DNA of 64,000 nucleotides from Verrucomicrobiota bacterium. GTDB lineage: Bacteria > Verrucomicrobiota > Verrucomicrobiia > Verrucomicrobiales > DEV007. The position numbers and the translations under genes are program-made. Below are positions 32,517 through 63,930 of the stretch, one piece after another. The DNA lies in assembly GCA_018970725.1 (NCBI GenBank), contig JAGWVU010000004.1, forward strand, positions 1 to 64,000. The letters run 5' to 3'. The notes beneath the pieces are model-generated. The model did no database searches. It was not told the origin of the DNA and saw only the letters and a program-made list of their open reading frames with translations. Within the stretch, counting starts at the first letter, position 1. The number at the start of each line of letters is the position of its first letter.

Positions 32517-35426
32517 GTGCATTCGTTGCCCACTTCCCCATCATTTTCCCTACCTCTATTTTGCCTTTTGTGCTTGTCATTCCTACCCCGGGAACATCTT
32601 TCCGGTCAAGAATCGCAGGTTCCGCTGGTTCTTCTGCAGGATGCGAACTCGGCCTATGTTTCCGCCGATTGGGCTGAATCTGCCCGTCTTTTCTCAAGAT
32701 TTCTCGATACTTATGGTAGTGACCCGACCCTTGCCGATCCCGCCAGAAAAGTGCGCCCTCTTCTGGCCCTGTCGTATTTCCGGCAAGGCGATTTTGAAAA
32801 TGCAAAAGATCCCACCGCAGAGGCCCTGACTGATTCTTCGCTGGATGCCGCAGTGCGCGCCGAGTTGCGCTTTTTCACCGCGATCGGGTGCTTAACTGAG
32901 GGCAAGCACGAGGAGGCCCGGAGCCGGCTCGGAGAAGTCTTCAATGATCCGAGAGTCGATCCATCGCGTCGGATGGAATCACTCATTCTCGGAGGGAACA
33001 GTTATGTCATGGAAGGGAACTGGGCCGGAGCCATCACTTTCTTCGAGAGTCATGGCCGGGAGATCCGCCAGGCCAGCCCCGAGGCGGGATCCCGCGCGGA
33101 CATTCTCCATCTGCACTCCTTGATGCAGGCGGAGCGTTGGGATGAATCCATTCTCCTCGCCCAGGACATCTCCACCCGGATCGATCAGGTGCGTCAGGTG
33201 GTGACGTTTTCCTCTCTCCTCATCGCCCTCGGTTCCCGCTTCCTCGAGGACCACCAGCCTTACAAGGCGATTGCCGTGTTGCGCATGGTCCGCCACCGCA
33301 CGGAAATCGTGCAGCTGCAGGAAACCAGGCTCGCGGAGACCCGCGCTGATTTCACTTACGCGGAACAAAGCCGGAACGCGGTCCGGCAAAACCAACTCCG
33401 GACCTGTGTGGCGGAAATGGAGAAGGACCTCGCGAACATTGGGACACTGCCCCAGTTCGATTCCGCCGCGCGACTCCGCCTGGCCCAAGCCTACAGTGAT
33501 CTCGGCCGGACTCGCGAGGCAGCGCTGCTCCTCGATCAGATGGTCCGCCAGATGCCGCCCGATGAGTTGGTCGAATCCGCGACAGTCAATCTCATCAGCG
33601 GATGGATGTCCCTGGACCGGTGGGGACGGGCCGCCCGCGCCGCGGATGTGTATTTGGAAAGGCTCGGCCAATTGCCCATCGCGAAGAACCTGCCGGGCGT
33701 CCTCTTTGCCAAGGCGCAGGCCACGGAAGGCCAGCTCGAACATGCGTTGGCGGCGAGCCTTTACGCGGAGATGGCGAACCGCTTTCCGGACGATGCCTTG
33801 GCGCGCAAGGCCCGTTTTCTCCAAGCCTACAACCGCATCCAACTGGATGACCACGCGGGGGCCGCCGTGCTGCTCGACGCGTTGCTGGCCGACCTTCCTG
33901 TCTCCGATGAGATGTGGGAACACGCCTTTTTCTGGCGGGCCATGACGGATTACTTCGAGCAGAACTGGGAATCGGCCCGGAAGCGGCTCGCGCGGTTGCT
34001 TGATCCGCCATCCAAAGACGCAGGCACGGGCAGCTACACGGACGACGCGATTTTCCGGATCGGTTATGCCTATTTTTCCGAGGCGCTCCACGAGCCGGCG
34101 ATCCGGGAGATGACCCGGCTGGAGAGGGAACATCCCGCGAGCGAGTGGTTGCCGGAAGCGCTTCTGACTCTGGGCGACGCCCGCGCGGCGCTGGGGGATT
34201 TGGACGAGGCCTTGCTCGCCTACCAACGCATCAGCGCCGAGGCCCCTGGTTTCCACGATGAAGGGTGGATGAAGCGCGGCCAGATCCTCAAGGCCCGCAA
34301 GGACCTCGAGGGAATGCGTTCCCTGTTCGAGAATTTTCTCAGGCTCCGACCGGAGAGCCCGAGGATCGCCGAAGCCCTTCACTGGCTCGGCTGGGTGGCG
34401 AAGCAGCAGGGTGACCCCGGACTGGCCCGCCGCATTTCCTGGGATGCCTTGCGCCGGCTCGGCAATGACAAGGTCAGGCCCGGTCTCGAGGAGATTTTCC
34501 TCGGCCTTGCCCCCCTCTATCCCGGTGACCAAAAGGCGGATCTCCGCGCCGCGCTGCAACAGGAGAAAACCGCGGCCGCGGCCCGGCAACAAGCCCGCTA
34601 CCTCGTGAGGCTCGGCTGGGCCGAACTCCAGCTTTTCCAGCAACGGGGCTCCGCGGAAACCGGGGAAGCCTGGCGTGCCCTCGCCGCCCAAATCGAACCT
34701 AAGGAAACCGCGCCGCGGATCCTCATCGACTGCGCCGAGGCCCTCGCCGGAGGCCGCGACCGCGAGGAAGTCTTCCGCCTCCTCGAGGGTCTCCGCAAAT
34801 GGTATCCACGCGCTCCGGAGCGGGACCGGGCCTTTGCCGGACTCGGCTTCCTCGCCTTGGAGCGCGGGGATAGAGCCGCGGCTTTGGCCTTGTTCGACCG
34901 ATTCGAGAAAACCGCTGTCATGCCAAAATCGGCCCCCGACGCGAACGGAATCTCCATCGTCGAGGCGGAGATCGGCGGCAAGGTGGCGCTGGCGCGGGCC
35001 GGACTCCTTGAGGCGACGAAACCGGACGTCGCCTTGCTGGTCTACAGCGCGGTGCAGAAATCCCGGGCGATGCCATCGCGGATCCGGGCGGAGGCTTTTC
35101 TGGGAGCCGCGCGGCTTCAGGCCGGACGGAAACGATTCCGGGAATCCCTCCCTCTTTACGAACAGATCTATGTGCTCTACAACCGCCATCCGGACCTTGT
35201 GGCCGAGGCGTATTGGGGTCGGGGACAGGCGCTGGAGGGCATCGGCAGTCCGGATCTGGCCCGTGAAGTCTACTCGGAGTTGGCCTGCCGTGAGGATTTG
35301 CGGAAAACCCAACAAGCTTCCGCGGGTCGGGCCCGGGCGATTGCCTTGGGCGGAGTCATCGAACCGAGGATTCCGCAGGAAGGGGAAATCCCGCCAAGGC
35401 CGACCGCGGCAACAGGAGGACCATGA
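32517..35426 (+). CDS. long TPR-repeat periplasmic protein
   Basis: A 969-residue protein starting at GTG with a signal peptide (LPLFCLLCLSFLPREHLSGQ). The whole mature chain is a solenoid of tetratricopeptide-like helical pairs (SARLFSRFLDTYGSDP, EALLTLGDARAALGDLDEALLAYQRI, EAYWGRGQALEGIG). TPR solenoids are protein-binding scaffolds. It heads the twelve-gene ExbB/ExbD/TonB locus and overlaps the next gene by 4 bp, so it is probably a periplasmic partner or assembly platform for these motor complexes. No enzymatic motif is visible. Confidence 0.8.
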   Translation: MHSLPTSPSFSLPLFCLLCLSFLPREHLSGQESQVPLVLLQDANSAYVSADWAESARLFSRFLDTYGSDPTLADPARKVRPLLALSYFRQGDFENAKDPTAEALTDSSLDAAVRAELRFFTAIGCLTEGKHEEARSRLGEVFNDPRVDPSRRMESLILGGNSYVMEGNWAGAITFFESHGREIRQASPEAGSRADILHLHSLMQAERWDESILLAQDISTRIDQVRQVVTFSSLLIALGSRFLEDHQPYKAIAVLRMVRHRTEIVQLQETRLAETRADFTYAEQSRNAVRQNQLRTCVAEMEKDLANIGTLPQFDSAARLRLAQAYSDLGRTREAALLLDQMVRQMPPDELVESATVNLISGWMSLDRWGRAARAADVYLERLGQLPIAKNLPGVLFAKAQATEGQLEHALAASLYAEMANRFPDDALARKARFLQAYNRIQLDDHAGAAVLLDALLADLPVSDEMWEHAFFWRAMTDYFEQNWESARKRLARLLDPPSKDAGTGSYTDDAIFRIGYAYFSEALHEPAIREMTRLEREHPASEWLPEALLTLGDARAALGDLDEALLAYQRISAEAPGFHDEGWMKRGQILKARKDLEGMRSLFENFLRLRPESPRIAEALHWLGWVAKQQGDPGLARRISWDALRRLGNDKVRPGLEEIFLGLAPLYPGDQKADLRAALQQEKTAAAARQQARYLVRLGWAELQLFQQRGSAETGEAWRALAAQIEPKETAPRILIDCAEALAGGRDREEVFRLLEGLRKWYPRAPERDRAFAGLGFLALERGDRAAALALFDRFEKTAVMPKSAPDANGISIVEAEIGGKVALARAGLLEATKPDVALLVYSAVQKSRAMPSRIRAEAFLGAARLQAGRKRFRESLPLYEQIYVLYNRHPDLVAEAYWGRGQALEGIGSPDLAREVYSELACREDLRKTQQASAGRARAIALGGVIEPRIPQEGEIPPRPTAATGGP

Positions 35427-36466
35427 GAATGCTCCTTGCCTGCCTCCTCCTCATGGGCGTCGCGTCCGGTCAGACTGCGGAGCAGGCGGCCGAAGCGTTG
35501 GCGCGCCGGGCGGATCTGGACGAAATCCGTTGGAAGGATCCCGCCCGGGGGGCGGCCTTCCGCGCCGGGATCGTGCGGGCCACGCCAGAGGGCTTGGAAG
35601 TCCAGCGGGGAACGGCGAAGCGCCTTTTGGCTTATGATCAGGTGGGCGGAATCCGTTTCGGTCTGTCCATGGGAGAACGGCAACTGATCGCGGAGGCGAA
35701 GCCGGAATCGATCCCCGCCCTGCGGGTATTCTGGGAGGCCCGCCGCCTCACGCTCGGCATTGCGGGGTCGAATGTCGGCGACTTCGGTTTGGCCCTCGCC
35801 CGGGCCCTGCGCCAAGAGGAAGCCTTTGCCGATGCGCTGGCCATCGCCCGGGAAATCGCCCGCGGAGATCACGATCCCTCGCGCAAGGGCAGGGCCCTTC
35901 AGGAGAGCGAGACCCTCGACTTCATCCAATTCCTGCGGACGGCCAAGCCAGTGGAGATCGAGAAGCGGGCCTGGAGCCTGATCGAGTCCGCCGATGAATC
36001 CAACCCCGACCTGATGCTTCTCCTCACCGGCTACCTCATGCTCAAAGAATTCGAGGCGCTGCGCCGGCTGGAAGAGGAGAATCCCAAATGGATGGAGGAC
36101 GATGAAGTCCGCCCCGCAAGGGACCGGCACTACCACCGCTCCCTCGACCTGGCGCTTTACCCCGGTCTGTTCCATCCCTCACGGACCACCGAAGCGGCGG
36201 CGGGGCTCTGGCAGGCCGCCCAAGTCTACCGCCACACCCGGGAGGAGGAACGGGAGGCAAACGCGCTCGAAGATCTCCTGGCCCTCTATCCGGGAACCGC
36301 CCGGAGCGCCGAGGCCCGGGACCGGCTCCTCCCTCTCCGAGCCCAACTGAATCGCCCGGCTCCCGGAGAGCCTGCCCATGATCCCGCCGAAGAAGAAAAG
36401 CCGAAGGCCGAAAAACCGGCGGAGCCACCGCCTCCACCCAAACGATACAACCTGTTTGAAGACTAG
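35423..36466 (+). CDS. secreted helical protein of unknown function in the ExbB/ExbD locus
   Basis: A 347-residue protein with signal peptide MRMLLACLLLMGVASG. A small beta-rich stretch comes first (FRAGIVRATPEGLEVQR...YDQVGGIRFGL), then alpha-helical, TPR-like repeats (REEEREANALEDLLALYPGT), and a charged Pro-rich C-terminus (EEEKPKAEKPAEPPPPP). I cannot assign a family. It is coupled to the TPR gene before it (ATGA overlap) and 4 bp before the first ExbB, so it very likely works with that complex in the periplasm. Confidence 0.65.
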   Translation: MRMLLACLLLMGVASGQTAEQAAEALARRADLDEIRWKDPARGAAFRAGIVRATPEGLEVQRGTAKRLLAYDQVGGIRFGLSMGERQLIAEAKPESIPALRVFWEARRLTLGIAGSNVGDFGLALARALRQEEAFADALAIAREIARGDHDPSRKGRALQESETLDFIQFLRTAKPVEIEKRAWSLIESADESNPDLMLLLTGYLMLKEFEALRRLEEENPKWMEDDEVRPARDRHYHRSLDLALYPGLFHPSRTTEAAAGLWQAAQVYRHTREEEREANALEDLLALYPGTARSAEARDRLLPLRAQLNRPAPGEPAHDPAEEEKPKAEKPAEPPPPPKRYNLFED

Positions 36467-36470
36467 CACC

Positions 36471-37244
36471 ATGTCCACCCGACTCCCCGTCCGCGCTTTT
36501 GCGATCTCCGCCTGCGCCGTCCTCTGGCTTACCCTGACCGGGATCCAGCCGATGGCGGCCCAAGAAGCCCCGGCCCCTGCGCGCGAGGAGGCCACGGTCC
36601 ACTCCAAAACGCTCATCGATCTCTATCAGGAAGGCGGCTGGGTGATGCACATGATCGCCCTCACCAGCATCGCCACACTCGCCGTCCTCAGCTTCTGCCT
36701 CGTTTCCCTGAACAAGGGCAGGCTCATGCCCGGCCGGGTCGTCACCGCCCTCAATGACGCGCTCCGGGCGCAGGACGCCGCCAAGGCCATCGCCATCTGC
36801 AACACCACGCCCTCCGTTCTCAGCACCGTGATCCGCGAGGCCTTGGAAAAGGCCGGCACCGGCGTAACCGAATACACCAAGGCGGATCTCGAGGCCGCCG
36901 CCGGGGAATCCATCTTCCATGAGGAAACCCGCCTCATGCTCTGGGTTAACATGCTCAACGCATTCGCCGCCGTCGCTCCCATGATCGGACTACTCGGCAC
37001 GGTGTCCGGGATGATCCAAAGTTTCGAGAAACTTTCTGCCGGAGCCGCCAAACCGTCCGATTTCGCCGGCGGGATCGGTGAGGCCATGGTCGGCACCGCC
37101 GGGGGCCTGCTCGTCGCCATCCCGGCCATGTTCGCCTACTTCTATTTCAAAAACTCCCTCCAATCCCTGATGTCGGAGGTGGCACGCTCCGCCTCCAACC
37201 TCATCGGCCGGTTCGTCACCGGCGCCCCGCAACCCGCGGCCTGA
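36471..37244 (+). CDS. MotA/TolQ/ExbB proton channel family protein (copy 1)
   Basis: A 257-residue inner-membrane protein with an N-terminal signal-like segment and a short periplasmic region, TM1 at about 58-80, a cytoplasmic loop, then TM2-TM3 (NAFAAVAPMIGLLGTVSGMI and GTAGGLLVAIPAMFAYFYF). The conserved threonines of both motifs that line the ExbB proton path are present. It builds the pentameric stator around an ExbD dimer and uses the proton gradient. The neighbouring ExbD genes at 37246 and 37682 are its probable partners. Start at 36471; the longer frame to 36378 lies in the previous gene. Confidence 0.9.
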   Translation: MSTRLPVRAFAISACAVLWLTLTGIQPMAAQEAPAPAREEATVHSKTLIDLYQEGGWVMHMIALTSIATLAVLSFCLVSLNKGRLMPGRVVTALNDALRAQDAAKAIAICNTTPSVLSTVIREALEKAGTGVTEYTKADLEAAAGESIFHEETRLMLWVNMLNAFAAVAPMIGLLGTVSGMIQSFEKLSAGAAKPSDFAGGIGEAMVGTAGGLLVAIPAMFAYFYFKNSLQSLMSEVARSASNLIGRFVTGAPQPAA

Positions 37245-37245
37245 C

Positions 37246-37662
37246 ATGATCATCCGCCGCCGCCACAGCGAGGACATCGGCTTCCAAATCGCGCCGATGA
37301 TCGATATCACCTGGATCCTCATCATCTTCTTCATGGTGACCATGCACCTGACGGAAAACGAGTTCTCCGTGGACGTCGCCCTGCCCGTCGCCAGCGCCGC
37401 CGAAGTCCCCCCGGATTTGAATGGACGGGTCGTCGTCAACATCGATCAGGCCGGGAACTACTTCGTCGGCAATGAAGCCATGACGCTCTCCCAGCTCACC
37501 GCCCATCTCAAGATGCGACTCCTCAAATATCCCCCTCTCAAGGTCTACCTCCGGGCCGATGCCGGAATCCCGGCCCGCAAGACCAAGGAATTCTACCGCG
37601 CCTGCGCGGAGTCCGGAGCCGTCGAGGTCATTCTCGCCAGCTTCCGCGAGAGCCAGAACTAA
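37246..37662 (+). CDS. ExbD/TolR biopolymer transport protein (copy 1)
   Basis: A 138-residue protein with one N-terminal TM helix (IAPMIDITWILIIFFMVTM) carrying the essential membrane Asp, then a periplasmic ExbD/TolR domain ending VEVILASFRE. It pairs with the ExbB one base upstream (the stop and ATG are separated by a single base). Two successive ExbD genes behind one ExbB suggest a heterodimeric ExbD1-ExbD2 core. Confidence 0.9.
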   Translation: MIIRRRHSEDIGFQIAPMIDITWILIIFFMVTMHLTENEFSVDVALPVASAAEVPPDLNGRVVVNIDQAGNYFVGNEAMTLSQLTAHLKMRLLKYPPLKVYLRADAGIPARKTKEFYRACAESGAVEVILASFRESQN

Positions 37663-37681
37663 GCTTCACCCGGATACCCCC

Positions 37682-38137
37682 ATGATGTCCCGCCGCCGCG
37701 AGGAGCCCCCCACTGAGATGCAGATCGCCCCCATGGCGGACATCGGCTTCCTGTTGCTCTGTTTTTTCATCGTCTCGGCCAAACCGCCGCGCCATGAAGC
37801 GGACATCAGCATGACCTTGCCCGGCTCGGTCTCGGACGAAGTGAGCGTCGATCTTCCTGAGGAAGTGCGGGTGGCGATCCGCCCGGACGGAGCCGTGGAG
37901 GTCAATGAGGGCATCCTTGGAGAACCATCCGACCGGGAACTGACCGTCCTCAAGGACACCCTGCAACGCTTCCGCGAATCCGCGACCAACAACCACACGA
38001 TGTCCCTCGTGACCCTGGACGTGGCAAATCAAAGCACCCATCAGCGGATCGTCGACGTTCTCAACGCTTGCGCCCGGGCCCGGATCAAGGGAGTCACCCT
38101 CAACAGCGAAGACGATCCGGAGGCAATCGAGCCATGA
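37682..38137 (+). CDS. ExbD/TolR biopolymer transport protein (copy 2)
   Basis: A 151-residue protein. TM helix IAPMADIGFLLLCFFIVSA retains the functional Asp, followed by the periplasmic TolR-like domain (LPEEVRVAIRPDGAVEVNEG, TLDVANQSTHQRIVDVLNAC). Two tandem ATGs (37682 and 37685) are possible. The stop overlaps the ATG of the VWA protein (ATGA), tying this ExbD pair directly to that protein. Confidence 0.9.
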   Translation: MMSRRREEPPTEMQIAPMADIGFLLLCFFIVSAKPPRHEADISMTLPGSVSDEVSVDLPEEVRVAIRPDGAVEVNEGILGEPSDRELTVLKDTLQRFRESATNNHTMSLVTLDVANQSTHQRIVDVLNACARARIKGVTLNSEDDPEAIEP

Positions 38138-39183
38138 GCCGCCAACCTTTCGACGCCGCACCCTCCGCGAACCCCGCATCGAAGGGGGCCGGAGCCGCCC
38201 TCATGGGCAGCCTCGCCGTTCACGCCCTCCTCGCCCTAGCGGGCGGGGCCTTCATCGTGGCCAAATCCATCCAAGCGCCACCACCCAAGTTTGTGGCGCC
38301 GCCGGCCCCCAAAATCAAGATTCCCCCGCAGACCAGGCAGCACCGGATGAACCTGGCCTCGCACGCCGGGCTCGCCTCCAAACCGACCTTCAAACAGCGC
38401 CTCGTCAGCCTGCGCCCCACCGCGTTCGCCCTCCCGGAAGCTCCCCGGATCGGACTCGATGCCAATCTGGTGCCGGATCCCTCCAGTGTGGTCTCCAGCC
38501 TGGTCACCGGCCTGAGCGGGGCCGGTGGACTGGGCAACGGAGCCGGGTTCGGTCTCGGCGGCTCGGGTGGATTGGCCAAGGGTCTCGGCGGTTTCACCTT
38601 CATGGGACTCAAGGCGCAGGGCCAGAAGATCGTGCTCTGCTTCGATGTCTCCGCCAGCGTCGTCAACAAGGCCGGGGCCAGCGGTGTTCCCCTTGCCAAG
38701 ATCAAGGAGGAAACCATCAAGCTGATTTCCGGCCTTCCCTCCGGGGCGGAGTTCGGGCTCATCCAATTCGTCCGCAACTTCAAACCCTTCAAACCGGAAC
38801 TCACCGCGATGACCCCGGCCAACCGCGATCTCGCGACCTCCTGGATCGAGCGGGAGTGGAACGAAAGCGGCCAGATGCCCAAAGGGGGGAACGGCGTGGT
38901 CAGCCCGCCCGCCAACGGAGTCCCCCGAGTGCTCGAGGCCGCCTTCGCAATGAAACCCGACGTCATCTTCGTGATCTCCGACGGCCAATTCGAGCAGACC
39001 ACCCCCGATGAACCCAACCGCCGGATCCCTTCCGAGGAAATCGAGGATCAAGTGAAGGGGTTTCAAAAGGCGGGTTCCAAAACCTCCCTCCACTTCATCG
39101 GCTTCCAAATGCGCGAGGAGGACAAGGACGCTTGGGAGAACATCACCCGGAGGACCGGCGGACGGCTGCGCGAAATCCGTTGA
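38134..39183 (+). CDS. TonB-like N-terminus fused to a von Willebrand factor A domain
   Basis: A 349-residue protein. A short cytoplasmic N-terminus precedes one TM helix (MGSLAVHALLALAGGAFIVA, about 24-43), a Pro-rich periplasmic segment (APPPKFVAPPAPKIKIPP), a Gly-rich hinge (about 126-153) and a VWA domain with intact MIDAS: DVSAS (171-175), a Thr/Ser-rich middle and FVISDGQ with Asp283. The layout up to the hinge mimics TonB, but the TonB C-terminal domain is replaced by a metal-dependent protein-binding VWA module. Being coupled to ExbB-ExbD-ExbD, it is probably the moving output of that motor. The last gene of this sub-operon. Confidence 0.8.
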   Translation: MSRQPFDAAPSANPASKGAGAALMGSLAVHALLALAGGAFIVAKSIQAPPPKFVAPPAPKIKIPPQTRQHRMNLASHAGLASKPTFKQRLVSLRPTAFALPEAPRIGLDANLVPDPSSVVSSLVTGLSGAGGLGNGAGFGLGGSGGLAKGLGGFTFMGLKAQGQKIVLCFDVSASVVNKAGASGVPLAKIKEETIKLISGLPSGAEFGLIQFVRNFKPFKPELTAMTPANRDLATSWIEREWNESGQMPKGGNGVVSPPANGVPRVLEAAFAMKPDVIFVISDGQFEQTTPDEPNRRIPSEEIEDQVKGFQKAGSKTSLHFIGFQMREEDKDAWENITRRTGGRLREIR

Positions 39184-39238: not shown

Positions 39239-39267
39239 TTGACTCCCGGTGCGGGTGGCGCTATTGC
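39239..39267 (+). promoter_or_regulatory. candidate promoter for the DUF3450-TonB half of the locus
   Basis: TTGACT (39239-39244) and TATTGC (39262-39267) are 17 bp apart, about 23 bp before the ATG at 39291, in the only sizeable gap (107 bp) inside the ExbB/ExbD/TonB locus. The -10 is a weak match. Confidence 0.3.
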
Positions 39268-39290
39268 GACTGAGTCTCAATCCCTCCCCC

Positions 39291-40091
39291 ATGATTTCGC
39301 TTCGCGCGCTTCTCCTCGCCGCAGGGCTCCTCTCCTTTTCCGGACCGGAGCTTCTGCGGGCTCAATCCGCTCCGCCGGCTCCCGTTCCGCCGGCCGACCC
39401 GGCGACGGTGGCCGTTCTCCGGGAGACCATCGCCCAATGGATCGAAACGGAACGGCTCATCTCGGAGGAAACCCAGGGCTGGGTGGGGCGCAAGGCAGCG
39501 ATGAACGAGTTGCTGGAGGTTTACCATCAGGAACTGGTACTCCTCGATGAAGAACTGGCCAAGGCCGGACAATCGGCCGCCTCATTCGATACCGAAAGAA
39601 CCGCGCTCCAATCCCGGATCGCCGCGCAAAAGGCCGCCCGGACAGATACCGCCCGTGCCATCGCAACGGCAAGGGAACAACTTCTGGAGCTGGGCCGACT
39701 CTTCCCGCCGCCGCTGCTCGAGACCGTTTCCCCGGATCTTGAAATCCTCAAGGGCTGGAAGGGAAGCGAAGAAGACGTGCGGGCCGCCCTCCAGGCGTTG
39801 CTCCGAATTCTGGAGCAGGCACAACGCTTTGCCTCGCACATCTCTCACGCCCGCGAGATCCGGGACGGGCGCGAACTGGAGGTCGTCTATCTGGGCGTGG
39901 CCTGCGCTTACTACACCGGCGGCGCAGGCATCGCGGGGATGGGGCGCCCCGGAAAAGGCGGCTGGCAATGGGAGGACCGCCCCGACCTCGCTCTCCGGAT
40001 CCGCCTCATCGTGGAACAGCTCGCAGGGGATGCTCCGCCCCGGCTCCTTACCCTTCCCGTCCCCGCGCGTTCCGCAGCGTCCCAACCATGA
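39291..40091 (+). CDS. DUF3450-like periplasmic coiled-coil protein
   Basis: A 266-residue protein with signal peptide (MISLRALLLAAGLLSFSG). A long coiled coil follows (about 40-125: VLRETIAQWIETERLISEE, VYHQELVLLDEELAKAG), then a globular region with LEVVYLGVACAYYTGG, matching the DUF3450 family. In Vibrio and relatives DUF3450 genes sit at the head of TtpC-ExbB-ExbD-TonB2-TPR clusters, exactly as here. Its biochemical role is unknown; it is probably a periplasmic accessory of the TtpC-like ExbB, whose gene overlaps it by 4 bp. Confidence 0.8.
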   Translation: MISLRALLLAAGLLSFSGPELLRAQSAPPAPVPPADPATVAVLRETIAQWIETERLISEETQGWVGRKAAMNELLEVYHQELVLLDEELAKAGQSAASFDTERTALQSRIAAQKAARTDTARAIATAREQLLELGRLFPPPLLETVSPDLEILKGWKGSEEDVRAALQALLRILEQAQRFASHISHAREIRDGRELEVVYLGVACAYYTGGAGIAGMGRPGKGGWQWEDRPDLALRIRLIVEQLAGDAPPRLLTLPVPARSAASQP

Positions 40092-41467
40092 GCCCGTCCG
40101 CGTTTTTCCGTATTCTGGTCGTCTTGACTCTCGCCGGGGGCTTTTCGCTTTCGGCTCAGGGCCAGACCGTTCCCTTGGATCAGGCCAAGACCAAGGCCGA
40201 GGCGGATCTGCAAGACGCCCTCAAGCGTTTGGGCGAAGCCCGGGCCGCTGTCGCCGCCGAGGAGCCCCGTCTCTCCGCGGACTTCTCAAAGATCGAGGTG
40301 GAACTCCGGGAGAAACGAAGACTGGCCCGACTCGCCCGCACCGCGGTGAGCGATCGGCGCGAGGTGCTCCGGGAACTCGAAAACACCGACTACCGGCTCG
40401 CCCAAGACACTTCCGCCCTGTCCGGCCTGCTTCGCGATCATGCTTTGAAAGTGGATCCCCGGAAGATCCCGGGCGCTCCGCCCCTCTCCGTGGGCAAGGA
40501 GGTCATCGTTCCGAAGTCCGACACCCCGCCACCGGCTGTGCTCGAAGCTCGCGTCGCCGTCATCAACGCCTCGATCGAACGGCTCGGCAAACTCTTCGCA
40601 GGGTCCACCTCCCCGGGGATCGCCGTGGCGGCTGATGGCTCGGTTCAGGAGGGCACTTTTGCGGCCTTGGGGCCGGAGAGTTGGTTCTCCTCACTCGACG
40701 GGCAGGCCGGCGGCCCGGTCGAGCCTGGGAAAAACGGTTCAGCGCCGCGGATCCTGCCCGGGGACGCCGCCGCCGCCGCCCGCTTGATTTCCGGCGGTGC
40801 GACGGAACTGGAGATCGATTTCACCGGGGGAAAAGCCCGCTTGGTGGAGGAGTCGACCCATTTCGGGGTTTGGGAATCGATCCAGGCCGGTGGCTTTTGG
40901 GTGTGGCCGATTCTGGCGTTGGGCCTCATCTCCTTTGCCTTCGGCGGCTTCAAGATCCTTCAATTCTCCAGGGTCCGGAGGCCCGGCCTGGCTTGGATGG
41001 AAGGCATCATCAAAGCGGTCAAACAAGGCGACCGGAGCCAAGCCGCGGAGTTGGCCCGACGGGCGAAGCACCCAGCCGGAGAGGTGTTGCACAAAGCGGT
41101 CCAAGCCTCGGGACAGGGGCTGGAAGCGATCGAGGAGACGATTTACGAAGCCTTGATCGGAGTGAAGGCGTGGTCGGGCTCCCACCTCCCATTCATTGCC
41201 GTGACCGCCGCCACGGCTCCGTTGTTGGGCCTGCTCGGCACGGTCTCGGGTATGATCCAGACCTTCCAAATGATCACCGTGGTCGGTTCGGGCGATCCCA
41301 AGCCTTTGGCGGGCGGCATTTCCGAGGCCTTGACCGCCACAGCGTGGGGATTGGTGGTGGCGGTGCCCTCGCTGCTGCTCCACGCTTACCTGACGCGCCG
41401 CAGTCAGGATATTCTCCAATCTTCCGAGCAGTTGGGACTCGTGTTTGTCAATAGCCTCCGCGACTGA
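40088..41467 (+). CDS. TtpC-like long MotA/TolQ/ExbB protein
   Basis: A 459-residue protein. A signal peptide (ILVVLTLAGGFSLSAQGQ) and a roughly 240-residue periplasmic N-domain with coiled coil (AKTKAEADLQDALKRLGEA) precede an ExbB core: TM1 (FWVWPILALGLISFAFGGF), then LPFIAVTAATAPLLGLLGTVSGMI and SEALTATAWGLVVAVPSLLL with the conserved proton-path threonines. This is the architecture of Vibrio TtpC, needed for TonB2-dependent uptake. ATGA overlap with the DUF3450 gene upstream; a second, short ExbB follows 7 bp later. Confidence 0.88.
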   Translation: MSPSAFFRILVVLTLAGGFSLSAQGQTVPLDQAKTKAEADLQDALKRLGEARAAVAAEEPRLSADFSKIEVELREKRRLARLARTAVSDRREVLRELENTDYRLAQDTSALSGLLRDHALKVDPRKIPGAPPLSVGKEVIVPKSDTPPPAVLEARVAVINASIERLGKLFAGSTSPGIAVAADGSVQEGTFAALGPESWFSSLDGQAGGPVEPGKNGSAPRILPGDAAAAARLISGGATELEIDFTGGKARLVEESTHFGVWESIQAGGFWVWPILALGLISFAFGGFKILQFSRVRRPGLAWMEGIIKAVKQGDRSQAAELARRAKHPAGEVLHKAVQASGQGLEAIEETIYEALIGVKAWSGSHLPFIAVTAATAPLLGLLGTVSGMIQTFQMITVVGSGDPKPLAGGISEALTATAWGLVVAVPSLLLHAYLTRRSQDILQSSEQLGLVFVNSLRD

Positions 41468-41474
41468 GACCTTG

Positions 41475-42005
41475 ATGCAACAGGCCCTGCAAGACACGAT
41501 CCGTGAGGGGGGCGTTGTGCTCTGGGCCCTGCTGGTGCTGGCGTCGTTCATCTACGCCCTCCTGGCCGCCATCTGGAGCGGACTGCGGCAGGCGCGCAAC
41601 CGCTTGCGCGCCTTGCAACCCGCTGCGGACTCACCGGACCCGGGGTATCCATTCGCTTCCTTCGAGCTGACGGAACTCGCTTGGGTCCGGCAACGCCTTC
41701 CGTTCGTCGCAGTGCTCATCACCGGGGCCCCGCTTCTCGGATTGCTCGGAACTGTCTCCGGCATGTTGCAGACCTTTCGCGGCTTGGCCCACTCGCGGAA
41801 CGGTGTCCCGGTGGCGGGTGTCTCCCAGGGCATCTCCGAGGCGCTCGTGGCCACCCAGGCCGGACTCATCGTGGCCGTCCCCGCCGCCTTTTTCCTCGCA
41901 CTGCTCCATCGCTCTGCCGAGCTCACCCAATTTGAACTCTGGAAGCGCTGGCACCACAGCCAGGTGCCCGTTCCCCAGCCTCCTTGTGCCTCACCCTCCG
42001 AATGA
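41475..42005 (+). CDS. short MotA/TolQ/ExbB protein (third ExbB of the locus)
   Basis: A 176-residue ExbB with three TM helices (VVLWALLVLASFIYALLAAIW; LPFVAVLITGAPLLGLLGTV; SEALVATQAGLIVAVPAAFF) and the conserved Thr residues. It matches ExbB2 of TonB2-type systems in size and place. I start at the ATG at 41475; a TTG ten codons earlier lies inside the TtpC-like gene. The stop overlaps the next ExbD start (ATGA). Confidence 0.9.
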   Translation: MQQALQDTIREGGVVLWALLVLASFIYALLAAIWSGLRQARNRLRALQPAADSPDPGYPFASFELTELAWVRQRLPFVAVLITGAPLLGLLGTVSGMLQTFRGLAHSRNGVPVAGVSQGISEALVATQAGLIVAVPAAFFLALLHRSAELTQFELWKRWHHSQVPVPQPPCASPSE

Positions 42006-42418
42006 AACGACGCGGCCTGCTCCAGGAAGAAGCTTCCACTGAGATTCACCTCAATCTCACCCCGCTGATCGATATCATGCTGGTGCTCCTGATTTTCTTC
42101 ATCGCCACCACGGTTTTCCTCGAGGAAGCAGGCGTGGAGGTTTCCAAACCAAGGGCCGCCACCGCCGTCGAACTGGACAACAAGGCGATCCTCCTGGCGC
42201 TCACCGCCGACGGCCGGGTCTTCCAAGGGGGACGCGAGATCGGCATGGACGGGGTCGGGGCGGTCATCGGCTCCCTTCTCGAGGAGGATCCCTCCGCGCC
42301 AGTGGTCATCCGCGCCGATGCCCAGACCACCACCGAACTCACCGTCAGCCTAATCGATGCCGCCAAGTTGGCGGGGGCCACCGTGGTTTCCCTGGCCACC
42401 GAACGCGCCACGCCATGA
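42002..42418 (+). CDS. ExbD/TolR biopolymer transport protein (copy 3)
   Basis: A 138-residue single-pass protein. TM helix HLNLTPLIDIMLVLLIFFIA has the essential Asp in the canonical context, and the periplasmic domain (KAILLALTADGRVFQGGREI, PVVIRADAQTTTELTVSLI) is typical ExbD. It is flanked by ATGA overlaps with the short ExbB before and TonB after, so these three are almost certainly made as one complex. Confidence 0.93.
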   Translation: MKRRGLLQEEASTEIHLNLTPLIDIMLVLLIFFIATTVFLEEAGVEVSKPRAATAVELDNKAILLALTADGRVFQGGREIGMDGVGAVIGSLLEEDPSAPVVIRADAQTTTELTVSLIDAAKLAGATVVSLATERATP

Positions 42419-43164
42419 ACTTCACCGCCGCGCTGACCGGTTTGCTCTCCGCCGCGTGTGTCCTGGCCGCGTTGGTCGTCCCGCGCTTTTTCCTTCCGAC
42501 CCCGGTCGAGCCCGGAATCCTTGACCTTCGGGAAGTCGAACTGGCTTTCGAGGAACCTCCCCCGCCACCGCCACCGCCACCGCCGCCGGCAGGTTCCGGT
42601 GACGAGGAACCCGGTCCGCCACCTCCTCCGATCGCGTTGACCGGCCTGAGTGATCTTCCCGATCCCTCGATGGTGGCGCTCCCCGTTGTGGACATTCCAC
42701 TACCGCCGGACCTCCCGGTCGATGCCTTCCAGTTCGCAGCCCGTTCCGGTCTTCCCGCCATGGGCAGCCTCGGAGCGACCGGAAACGGAACTGGTGGCTT
42801 GGGGGGGGCCGGAACCGGGCTGGGCAAGGGCATCGGTCCGGGACGTCCCGGGACCCCCTCCGCGCCCGGAAAAGCTTCCTACCGGGTGACGGAATTGGAC
42901 GGTTCCCCGAGACTGCTCCACCATCCGGGAGTGACCTTTCCCTCCCGCCTCGCCGCCGCCGGGGTCAGGGCTGGGACGGTGGTGCTCGAGGTCGAGTTGT
43001 CCGAGGCCGGGCGGGTCTCCGTCCGGCGCGTTGTCTCCTCGACGCATCCTGAATTGGTCGCCCCGGCCCGCTATCTGGCCCAGGGGTCCCGATACACCCC
43101 GCCGAAGATGAACGGTGTTGCGGTCAAAGCCGTGATGCGGTGGCCCATCACCATCACGCAATGA
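42415..43164 (+). CDS. tonB: TonB family energy transducer
   Basis: A 249-residue protein: N-terminal TM (about 6-27), an acidic and polyproline periplasmic spacer with eleven consecutive prolines (about 48-58) and a second run of five, a Gly-rich stretch (about 130-155), and a TonB C-terminal domain (VRAGTVVLEVELSEAGRVSV, PARYLAQGSRYTPPKMNG). It transmits ExbB/ExbD motor energy to outer-membrane TonB-dependent receptors, none of which is encoded in this window. The TM lacks the His that is functional in E. coli TonB. Coupled to ExbD copy 3. Confidence 0.88.
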   Translation: MNFTAALTGLLSAACVLAALVVPRFFLPTPVEPGILDLREVELAFEEPPPPPPPPPPPAGSGDEEPGPPPPPIALTGLSDLPDPSMVALPVVDIPLPPDLPVDAFQFAARSGLPAMGSLGATGNGTGGLGGAGTGLGKGIGPGRPGTPSAPGKASYRVTELDGSPRLLHHPGVTFPSRLAAAGVRAGTVVLEVELSEAGRVSVRRVVSSTHPELVAPARYLAQGSRYTPPKMNGVAVKAVMRWPITITQ

Positions 43165-43174
43165 CTTTTTCCTC

Positions 43175-44533
43175 ATGACCCGAATCCTCCTGACCCTTTT
43201 CTCCGCTCATGCCGCTTTAGCCGGCGCGGTGGAGCCCTTGCCCATCTCCCCGCAATACTGGCGGGAACCGGCTTTCCTCAAGGCGTTCACCGGCTCCTAT
43301 GAAATTGAGTTCCGGATCGAGCCGTCCGTCACCGCCGCGGAAAGTGAACTTCTGGTTCAGGTGCAAAAGCTCATGGCTGCCGGGAAGCGTCCCGACGCCC
43401 TGCGACTCCTTGAGCAAAGTTCACTGCTGCCGGGGTCCGCCGCCCTCCAGTTTAACCGGGGCAACCTGCTTTTCGAGGAGGGAAAACTCGAGAACGCCCT
43501 CACCGCCTACGAAGCGGCCATCAAGTTGGTCCCGTCCTTCCGCCGGGCCCATCGCAATCTTGCCCTGACCATCCTGCGCAAGGATTCGTTTGCCAAGGCT
43601 CTTCCGCCCTTGCTCGAGGCCATCCGGCTCGGGGATCAGGATGGCCTCACCTATGGCTTGCTGGGCTACTGCCGGCTTCAGGAAGAACACTGGGCCAGCG
43701 CCCTCCAAGCCTATCGCATGGCCCTCCTCATGGAACCGGAATCGGTCGAATGGAAAAGCGGCCTTGCCCAGTGCCTCCAACACCTCGACCAAAACGAGGA
43801 GGCCGTGGCCCTTTTGGACGAGGTCATCGCCGCCCGTCCCGACCAAGCCTCCTACGCCATGGTCCAGGCCGGCATTTATCTGGCCATGGACCGCCATGAA
43901 CCAGCCATCGCCGCCCTCGAACTGCCGCGCCGCCTCGGCACCCTCGATGGAGAAGGTCTGCTCCTGCTGGCCGAGCTGCATCTCCGGGCCGGTCGCGAGC
44001 CTCTGGCCGTCCCTCTCGTCACGGAAGCTTTCGCCCAAAGTTCGCCCCCACCTCCGGCGCGCATTCTCGGCGCCCTGCGAAGCGCGACGAATCTGGCGGC
44101 TTGGACCCTCGCCCGGGACTTGGAAACACAGGCCTTCCACCATGCCCCGCCCGAGGCCACGGCCTACCGTGCCGACCTCTCAAGGGAGCAGGCGCGCATC
44201 GACCTTTCTTCCGGTCAAAACGTCGAGCGCGGTCTCAAGACCTTGCGGACTCTGGTCGCGGCCAAGCCGGACGACGGCTCTTCCCTGGTGATTCTGGGCG
44301 GGCATCTCGCCAAAACCGGTGCCGCCGAGGAGGCGGAAATGCTGTTCCTCCGGGCCGCCAAGACGGAAGCGGTCGCCTTCGATGCCTGGTTTGAACTGGT
44401 ACGCCTGCGGGTCGACCAACGCCGTTACGAGGCAGCGGTCGCCGCCGTTGACAATGCCCTGGCACTCCGCAAGTCCGAAGATCTCAGCCGCTACCGTGAA
44501 GCGTTGACCGGACTGATCGAGGCTGCGCAGTGA
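43175..44533 (+). CDS. TPR protein closing the TonB locus
   Basis: A 452-residue protein with a short signal peptide (ILLTLFSAHAALAGA) and at least eight TPR-like units (ALQFNRGNLLFEEGKLENAL, YGLLGYCRLQEEHWASALQA). A TPR protein directly behind TonB is a hallmark of Vibrio TonB2/TtpC clusters, where it aids assembly of the complex in the periplasm. Eleven bases separate it from tonB. No enzymatic residues seen. Confidence 0.8.
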   Translation: MTRILLTLFSAHAALAGAVEPLPISPQYWREPAFLKAFTGSYEIEFRIEPSVTAAESELLVQVQKLMAAGKRPDALRLLEQSSLLPGSAALQFNRGNLLFEEGKLENALTAYEAAIKLVPSFRRAHRNLALTILRKDSFAKALPPLLEAIRLGDQDGLTYGLLGYCRLQEEHWASALQAYRMALLMEPESVEWKSGLAQCLQHLDQNEEAVALLDEVIAARPDQASYAMVQAGIYLAMDRHEPAIAALELPRRLGTLDGEGLLLLAELHLRAGREPLAVPLVTEAFAQSSPPPPARILGALRSATNLAAWTLARDLETQAFHHAPPEATAYRADLSREQARIDLSSGQNVERGLKTLRTLVAAKPDDGSSLVILGGHLAKTGAAEEAEMLFLRAAKTEAVAFDAWFELVRLRVDQRRYEAAVAAVDNALALRKSEDLSRYREALTGLIEAAQ

Positions 44534-62183: not shown

Positions 62184-62729
62184 TCAACGATGGAAACCAA
62201 ACTCGGCCCGGCGGTTCGCCGCATGGGCGCTATCCGACTCGCTCGCGTCTGCAGGATAATCCTCGCCATAACTCACCGTCTGGACCCGACCCGGATCGAT
62301 CCCGAACCGCACCAAGGCGGCGCGCACCGCCTGGGCCCGCAGCTCCCCGAGGTTCCGGTTGTAATCGGGCGTCCCGACAGAATCCGTGTGCCCGGCCACG
62401 ATCAAGCGGGAGGGATCGCTCCGCAGATACTCCGCGACCCGCTGCACCTTGGCCAGCTCGCTGTTGGCGATCTCATATTGATCAAACCCGAATTGGACCG
62501 CCGGAAAAAGGTCCCGCTTCACGCTGGAACTGAAGAAATTCACCCCGTTGGTGCGACCCGCCAGCGGAAGATCGCCCCCGTATCCGCCCTCCGCGGAGCT
62601 GTCGTAAACGTCGCCGTAGGAACCGGCTTCTCCGGGGGCCGGACTGCCTTTGCGGTTGGCACAACCGGTCCAACCGAGTGAGACAATCAGAATACCCAAT
62701 GACAGAAGGGATGGACGAGACGATTTCAT
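62184..62729 (-). CDS. pal: peptidoglycan-associated OmpA-family lipoprotein
   Basis: A 181-residue lipoprotein. The signal peptide ends in lipobox GWTGC (Cys23). After a Gly/Ser-rich linker, the OmpA-like domain spans about 75-181, with VAGHTDSVGTPDYNRNLGEL and AHAANRRAEFGF, which binds peptidoglycan meso-diaminopimelate in the family. It anchors the outer membrane to the wall as part of the Tol-Pal system. The frame opens at 62912 in tolB; the ATG at 62729 is chosen for the lipoprotein signal. It lies 28 bp after the tolB stop. Confidence 0.92.
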   Translation of the reverse strand: MKSSRPSLLSLGILIVSLGWTGCANRKGSPAPGEAGSYGDVYDSSAEGGYGGDLPLAGRTNGVNFFSSSVKRDLFPAVQFGFDQYEIANSELAKVQRVAEYLRSDPSRLIVAGHTDSVGTPDYNRNLGELRAQAVRAALVRFGIDPGRVQTVSYGEDYPADASESDSAHAANRRAEFGFHR

Positions 62730-62757
62730 GAGATTTGCGGGTGGGGGAAAGGATCTT

Positions 62758-63930
62758 TCAACGGGACCAAGCCGGCTCGGAGACCTCTCCGAAACCGCTG
62801 ACGACCGGCGCGCGGGTCCCGCTCTCCACGTCGTGAACGTAAAGCGTGCCGGACTGGACATAGGCAAGGTGCTGGGAGTCCGCCCCCCAAACCGGGGTCT
62901 CCGCGCTGGCACCGCTCGTCAAAACGCGGGTTGTCCCCGTCCGCAGGTCGTGGACCGCCACCTGATTCCGTCCTCCCTCCCGCACATTGAAGGCGAGCCC
63001 GTGGCCGTTCGGAGCCCAGTCCGGCTCCACGCAATACGCGTGCCCGGTATCGATCCGCTGCGGTCGCCCGCCCTCGGCCGGAATCACGAAAAGCTGCGGA
63101 GCCCCCGTCGCGTCCGACACAAAAACAATCTTCCGCCCGTCCGGTGACCAGCAGGGCGAGGATTCCACATACCGGGAGTGCGTCAACCGCTTGGGACGTC
63201 CCCCACGCACCGGCAGCACGAACAACTCCGGATTCCCGCTCGCACTCATCGTGCAGGCAATCTGTTCGCCTCCCGGAGAAAAGGCGGCACCGGTGTTGGT
63301 TCCCGGTTCAGAGACGATCTTCTCCCGGCGCCCGGTGGACAGATCAATGAGATAAATGTCCGCGAAACCGTTCAGGTATCCCGTGTAAGCCAGCTGCCGG
63401 GCGCCGCGACTCAGGGCGGGGCTCACGCTGATCGAATTGTCCCGGGTCACCTGCTGCAGGTTGGCCCCATCGGCATCACAGAGATACAGCTCCTTGCGCC
63501 CCGCCTTCTTCACGGAGAACGCAAACCGCGAACCCGCGATGCCCGGCACTCCCGTGATCGCCCCAACCGCGTCATCGGCAAAGCGGTGCGCCAGCGCCCC
63601 CAGAGCTTCCCCGTTGTATTTGCGCTCCAGCAGGATCCGTCCGTCCGGTCCTACGACCCGTCCCTGCAAAACTCCTGCGCCCGTGCTCCCCTCCACCGTG
63701 AACGCCCCGGCGGGTGTCGGCTGCAAACGAATCCGGCCGGAGCGGCGCAAATCCGCACTCAGAGTCTCCATCGCTTCCACGCCCCCGGTTCCCTGGAAAC
63801 CACGCAAAGCGACGGGAAACCCCCGCTGTCCAGTGATTGTGATCTCCACTGGCTGACCGAGCAGGATGCTGGCGAAGCCGACGGCCGCCATCCCGATCAC
63901 GAGCAGAACCTGTAAAAACTCGGAGCGCAT
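62758..63930 (-). CDS. tolB: TolB-like beta-propeller protein
   Basis: A 390-residue periplasmic protein with an N-terminal hydrophobic export segment (FLQVLLVIGMAAVGFASILL), a TolB N-domain (about 30-130) and a six-bladed propeller of WD40-like/PD40 repeats (GARQLAYTGYLNGFADIYLI, CWSPDGRKIVFVSDATGAPQ, DWAPNGHGLAFNVREGG). It partners Pal in outer-membrane constriction and integrity. tolQ, tolR and tolA are not adjacent here; the window edge hides what lies upstream. Confidence 0.93.
   Translation of the reverse strand: MRSEFLQVLLVIGMAAVGFASILLGQPVEITITGQRGFPVALRGFQGTGGVEAMETLSADLRRSGRIRLQPTPAGAFTVEGSTGAGVLQGRVVGPDGRILLERKYNGEALGALAHRFADDAVGAITGVPGIAGSRFAFSVKKAGRKELYLCDADGANLQQVTRDNSISVSPALSRGARQLAYTGYLNGFADIYLIDLSTGRREKIVSEPGTNTGAAFSPGGEQIACTMSASGNPELFVLPVRGGRPKRLTHSRYVESSPCWSPDGRKIVFVSDATGAPQLFVIPAEGGRPQRIDTGHAYCVEPDWAPNGHGLAFNVREGGRNQVAVHDLRTGTTRVLTSGASAETPVWGADSQHLAYVQSGTLYVHDVESGTRAPVVSGFGEVSEPAWSR

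Follow-up and report, generated by a model that had tools for sequence, protein, structure and literature searches.

Within a window of 64,000 nucleotides of DNA from a Verrucomicrobiota bacterium there is a block of six genes on the forward strand (32517-39183) in which the subunits of a putative proton motor are encoded next to a TonB-like protein that ends in a VWA domain. The locus raises the question of whether this is a motor system in its own right, and on what such a motor might act.

Content and conservation of the gene block

The six genes are as follows.

32517..35426, + strand: TPR1, 969 aa; signal-like N-terminus, then a TPR superhelix
35423..36466, + strand: S347, 347 aa; signal-like N-terminus, small five-stranded barrel (residues 33-78) and TPR-like helical solenoid
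36471..37244, + strand: ExbB/TolQ-like proton channel, 257 aa; signal-like periplasmic extension at the N-terminus (MotA_ExbB, 3.5e-26)
37246..37662, + strand: ExbD1, 138 aa (Pfam ExbD, 5.3e-19)
37682..38137, + strand: ExbD2, 151 aa, unlike ExbD1 (Pfam ExbD, 4.5e-16)
38134..39183, + strand: TonB-like VWA protein, 349 aa

A preliminary description had claimed an ExbB, two different ExbD proteins and a VWA protein at this locus, and all are present, ExbB and the ExbDs by Pfam and the VWA fold by an AF2 model. The close linkage that it had noted is borne out by the gene coordinates, with a 1 bp gap between ExbB and ExbD1, about 20 bp between ExbD1 and ExbD2, and an ATGA overlap at 38134-38137 between ExbD2 and the VWA gene, which starts at ATG 38134. 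The start of ExbB had been placed at 36378, which falls within S347, and ATG 36471 is the likelier start. None of the six proteins matched the PADLOC models for Zorya and other defence systems at E 0.1.

TPR1 matches Pfam TPR families (best 1.3e-17). The AF2 model of S347, with a mean pLDDT of 88.9, has the small five-stranded barrel followed by the helical solenoid; its Foldseek matches are weak and TPR-like, BamD included, and some orthologues carry TPR Pfams. The motor residues are kept, as had been claimed. The membrane Asp20 is present in 69/69 aligned sequences of ExbD1 and in 70/70 of ExbD2, and the proton-path residues Thr177 and Thr209 of ExbB are invariant in 64/64.

The six genes share one strand and one order in 49 of the 53 named Verrucomicrobiota loci that have at least 6.2 kb of upstream flank, with TPR1 always first and S347 second in the conserved block; the exceptions are L131, L136, L145 and L146. 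When the relatives of the window's organism were searched with the VWA protein, 46 of 57 genomes gave a match, and the six genes stand beside most of the strong ones. Scanning genome contigs with a VWA profile gave 74 loci, every record being titled as a Verrucomicrobiota group, and the 74 named VWA proteins fall into 36 clusters at 80% identity. Among genomes drawn from the phylum the profile matches 79 of 388 at a cut-off of 1e-15. The string TPR-ExbB-ExbD-ExbD-VWA is found in several of its distant genomes (L164-L171, L178-L182), and others have a stand-alone VWA gene (L172-L177, L183). These stand-alone proteins have no motor genes nearby, and their membrane His is replaced by Gln.

With the complete block intact in 49 of the 53 loci, the gene string is far from chance. 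It is conserved across Verrucomicrobiota and not unique to the window's genome. Conserved gene order denotes a functional link, not physical contact. Three loci (L059, L060 and L136) keep TPR1, S347 and the VWA gene in the absence of linked motor genes, which suggests that this triad is the functional output unit.

The TonB-like VWA protein

The last protein of the block can be divided into four regions.

38191..38265, + strand: membrane helix, about residues 20-44; S26xxxH30 corresponds to docking residues of TonB/TolA type
38272..38331, + strand: Pro-rich juxtamembrane spacer, about residues 47-66; P49, F53 and P64 near-invariant
38332..38583, + strand: conserved linker with H70, M72, H77, P84, P95, P101, P104 and D115-P116, then Gly-rich (residues 129-150)
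38584..39180, + strand: VWA domain, residues 151-349; D171, S173, S175 and D283 kept, V263 at the MIDAS Thr site

A membrane helix with an SxxxH motif, followed by a Pro-rich spacer, agrees with the TonB-style N-terminus previously described. In the AF2 model the helix spans residues 18-46. H30 is found in 71 and S26 in 62 of 75 aligned sequences. The His is kept in 75/77 VWA proteins that are linked to a motor and the Ser in 66/77, compared with 30/37 and 10/37 respectively for those that are not. A strict tie between a nearby motor gene and the membrane His was considered and rejected, as the residue is present in those 30 unlinked proteins and two motor-linked members (L102 and L118) have Val in its place. 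Because it is also kept where no motor is linked, the membrane His is not proof of coupling to the window's ExbB.

The Pro-rich segment sits where a motor box would be expected, the short strand that follows the membrane helix in the force transducers with a vWA domain that Williams-Jones et al. describe (2025, PMC12204202). The segment is conserved, but the AF2 model has no strand at this position; a motor-box function can be proposed for it by analogy with TonB and TolA. The linker columns are invariant or near-invariant, and the linker is largely of low confidence in the model. There is no match to Pfam TonB_C in the protein.

The C-terminal domain matches Pfam VWA with E = 0.0043, below the cut-off, and the AF2 model has a confident VWA fold in this region. 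On VIA alignment it superposes on the VWA domain of inter-alpha-inhibitor heavy chain with Z = 17.6 and 2.1 Å over 157 residues, and other neighbours by Foldseek and VIA-align include VWA domains of the proteasome and TFIIH. The domain had been described as MIDAS competent, and this holds for the DxSxS motif and the motif-3 Asp (D171, S173, S175 and D283), which are kept in 71-74 of 75 sequences. It does not hold for the MIDAS Thr, whose position is occupied by V, L, I or F throughout the window's subfamily. Since Thr occupies this position in many distant homologues, and the MIDAS of a sister subfamily is complete (GGT), loss of the Thr appears the likelier direction of change. Since the Thr is gone, the VWA domain of this subfamily is probably a protein-docking domain rather than a metal-dependent adhesin.

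The earlier proposal of a metal-dependent adhesion domain moved by the motor is accordingly unsupported for the window's protein, and is the least probable of the readings considered, given the loss of Thr across the subfamily and the inner-membrane anchor of the domain, even though no sequence of the profile alignment departs from DxSxS or the motif-3 Asp and the MIDAS of the sister subfamily is complete.

Relation to known systems and to neighbouring motors

A literature search for vWA transducers in a comparable setting found one paper. Williams-Jones et al. (2025, MBE, PMC12204202) describe vWA force transducers encoded in the PVC group downstream of a TPR gene, a tolQ and two unlike tolR genes, with a predicted pmf drive, AF3 models of motor docking and an SHLS motif. 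The Tichowtungia-type proteins share with the window's protein a helix with an SHLS-like motif, a Pro-rich linker and a C-terminal VWA domain. In the window we find an SHLS-type helix motif, of which the L and second S are not clear in this sequence, the C-terminal vWA fold, and a gene that comes after those for a TPR protein, a tolQ-like protein and two differing tolR-like proteins. The block is a deeply conserved member of this published family. The preliminary description had taken it for an undescribed system, but both the vWA family and the gene string had already been reported there. The window differs from the published transducers in the presence of S347, a gene that the text of that paper does not name, and in a subfamily that lacks the MIDAS Thr.

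The block shares features with other systems as well. Motor subunits, Ser and His docking residues in an N-terminal helix and a Pro-rich periplasmic spacer are shared with TonB-ExbB-ExbD and TolA-TolQ-TolR. Unlike these, the window has a VWA domain in place of the TonB or TolA C-terminal domain, two unlike ExbDs, and the TPR and S347 genes. The Agl/Glt system of Myxococcus xanthus is similar in having one TolQ-type and two TolR-type subunits with TPR partners; the block differs in that no Glt barrel genes were seen in it and in the fusion of the VWA domain to an inner-membrane anchor.

Directly downstream, at 39249-44533 on the + strand, lies an operon of the Vibrio TonB2 kind, TtpB(DUF3450)-TtpC-ExbB2-ExbD2-TonB2-TPR. 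Like the Vibrio operon (TtpB-TtpC-ExbB2-ExbD2-TonB2-TtpD) it is also an ExbB/ExbD system, but a separate operon of the usual kind. Among the loci examined the two adjoin only in the window's genus, and we rejected the TonB2-type operon as a part of the VWA system on this ground. Genes of Tol-Pal type lie near the end of the window.

62184-62912, - strand: Pal-like gene; OmpA-like by reading of the sequence rather than by model search
62758-63930, - strand: TolB-like gene (PD40, 2e-18)

These are followed just past the window's end by TolA-like (TonB_2), TolR-like and TolQ-like genes (contig C87, 64081-66531). With Tol-Pal-type and TonB2-type systems both close by, the VWA module is a third system, a stand-in for neither Ton nor Tol-Pal. 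Two distribution tests were discarded: TolB_N (PF04052) as a measure of Tol-Pal absence matched 13/388 genomes and missed the TolB-like gene of the window's own genome, and the distribution of Plug domains, for TonB-dependent receptors, does not discriminate.

A paralogous triad is present elsewhere in the same genome, on contig C43, where the T2SS genes E, F, G and K and a secretin gene are followed by genes for a TPR protein, an S347-like protein and a VWA protein that carries SxxxH. No ExbB or ExbD was found near it.

L184 7303-14430 and L063 3045-10276 (contig C43): T2SS operon ending in secretin, TPR, S347-like and VWA genes

The S347-like and VWA-like proteins of C43 gave hhalign values of 94.6% and 99.5% against the window's families. 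Among the genomes examined this linkage occurs in only three, all of the window's genus, and it was set aside as a general feature of the triad.

Other motor sets were also seen. A row of genes for a Ras-like GTPase (MglA-like), Roadblock/LC7, ExbB, ExbD and a TonB-like protein lies at L069 6234-9497 (contig C42). At L186 5222-9316 (contig C28, - strand) a TolQ-like protein with a zinc-ribbon-like start is encoded beside two Asp-helix proteins without a Pfam match; this set, with its N-terminal Asp-bearing helices, is similar to the second type of motor described by Williams-Jones et al. (PMC12204202). At L187 7518-12356 (contig C9) an ExbB and two ExbDs precede a PD40/M28 peptidase/PDZ protein.

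A putative force transducer of the envelope

We think it likely that the block encodes a pmf-driven force transducer of TonB/TolA type with its own motor, acting on a periplasmic TPR scaffold. Such a motor, with a TonB-like VWA protein tied to it and the TPR and 347-aa proteins as partners, had been proposed in the preliminary description, and it is supported by the conservation of gene order and by the motor residues that are kept. We infer its stoichiometry, docking, force and partner as follows. A pentamer of ExbB would hold within its pore an unlike ExbD pair, one ExbD1 and one ExbD2, and protons passing the ExbD Asp residues would turn or cycle the motor. Through S26 and H30 the VWA protein could dock its single membrane helix on the outside of ExbB, its Pro-rich segment engaging the ExbD periplasmic domains. 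The motor cycle would then pull the flexible linker, such that the VWA domain tugs, releases or moves a partner in the periplasm or outer membrane, most likely the co-encoded TPR1/S347 scaffold.

As to the role in the cell, our first choice, a tentative one, is an envelope scaffold that positions or tensions a TPR assembly associated with the outer membrane. It seems rather less probable that the block maintains outer-membrane integrity in the manner of Tol-Pal, with TPR1 as a counterpart of CpoB. TPR1 does pass the NCBIfam tol_pal_ybgF model (92.9 bits against a cut-off of 90.1), and of the NCBIfam models those for TolQ and TolR score best for ExbB and both ExbDs, all of them far under cut-off. 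The Tol-Pal-type operon on the same contig argues against simple replacement, although action in parallel could occur.

Alternatively the module might energise TonB-dependent receptors or other import or export across the outer membrane, the VWA domain taking the place of the TonB C-terminal domain. The TonB-like topology, the three Plug domains in the genome and the paralogous triad in an operon with a secretin are consistent with this, but the TonB2-type operon directly downstream has its own TonB, and the VWA profile has no match in the listed genomes of g19, a genus that does have TonB-dependent receptors. We consider this role unlikely. More speculative is the idea that TPR1, S347 and the VWA protein form a portable trans-envelope output unit for different engines, which might be their own ExbB-ExbD1-ExbD2 in most genomes, a shared motor supplied in trans or possibly the T2SS. 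A motor in trans is proposed for loci where the linked motor genes are missing, and a T2SS drive for the window's genus, where the paralogous triad follows the secretin gene.

A gliding engine like that of Myxococcus, in which one TolQ and two TolRs would power an envelope-spanning assembly of TPR and TonB-like proteins whose output is a VWA adhesin, appears improbable. AglRQS does consist of a single TolQ-type protein with two of TolR type, TPR proteins belong to Glt (PMC3169522), and Williams-Jones et al. (PMC12204202) suggest that their vWA proteins have a role in gliding. Yet against the GltE model TPR1 reaches just 14.4 bits, where the cut-off is 225, and is not a GltE-type TPR lipoprotein, the block has no Glt barrel genes that we could see, the VWA domain stays attached to the inner membrane instead of being secreted, and the MglA-like gene of the genome sits with the other motor on contig C42.

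Returning to the force transducer, what is new here is the constancy of S347 as a gene of the block, which does not figure in the text of the published account (PMC12204202), the loss of the MIDAS Thr, the co-existence of the module with systems of Ton and Tol-Pal type, and the paralogous triad linked to the T2SS. Given the Thr loss, metal-dependent adhesion should not be presumed. The fixed set of six genes with its constant S347 offers defined genes and proteins for study, and a trans-envelope system that draws on the pmf, as a third next to Ton and Tol-Pal and conserved across much of a phylum, would widen the known roles of ExbBD-type motors.
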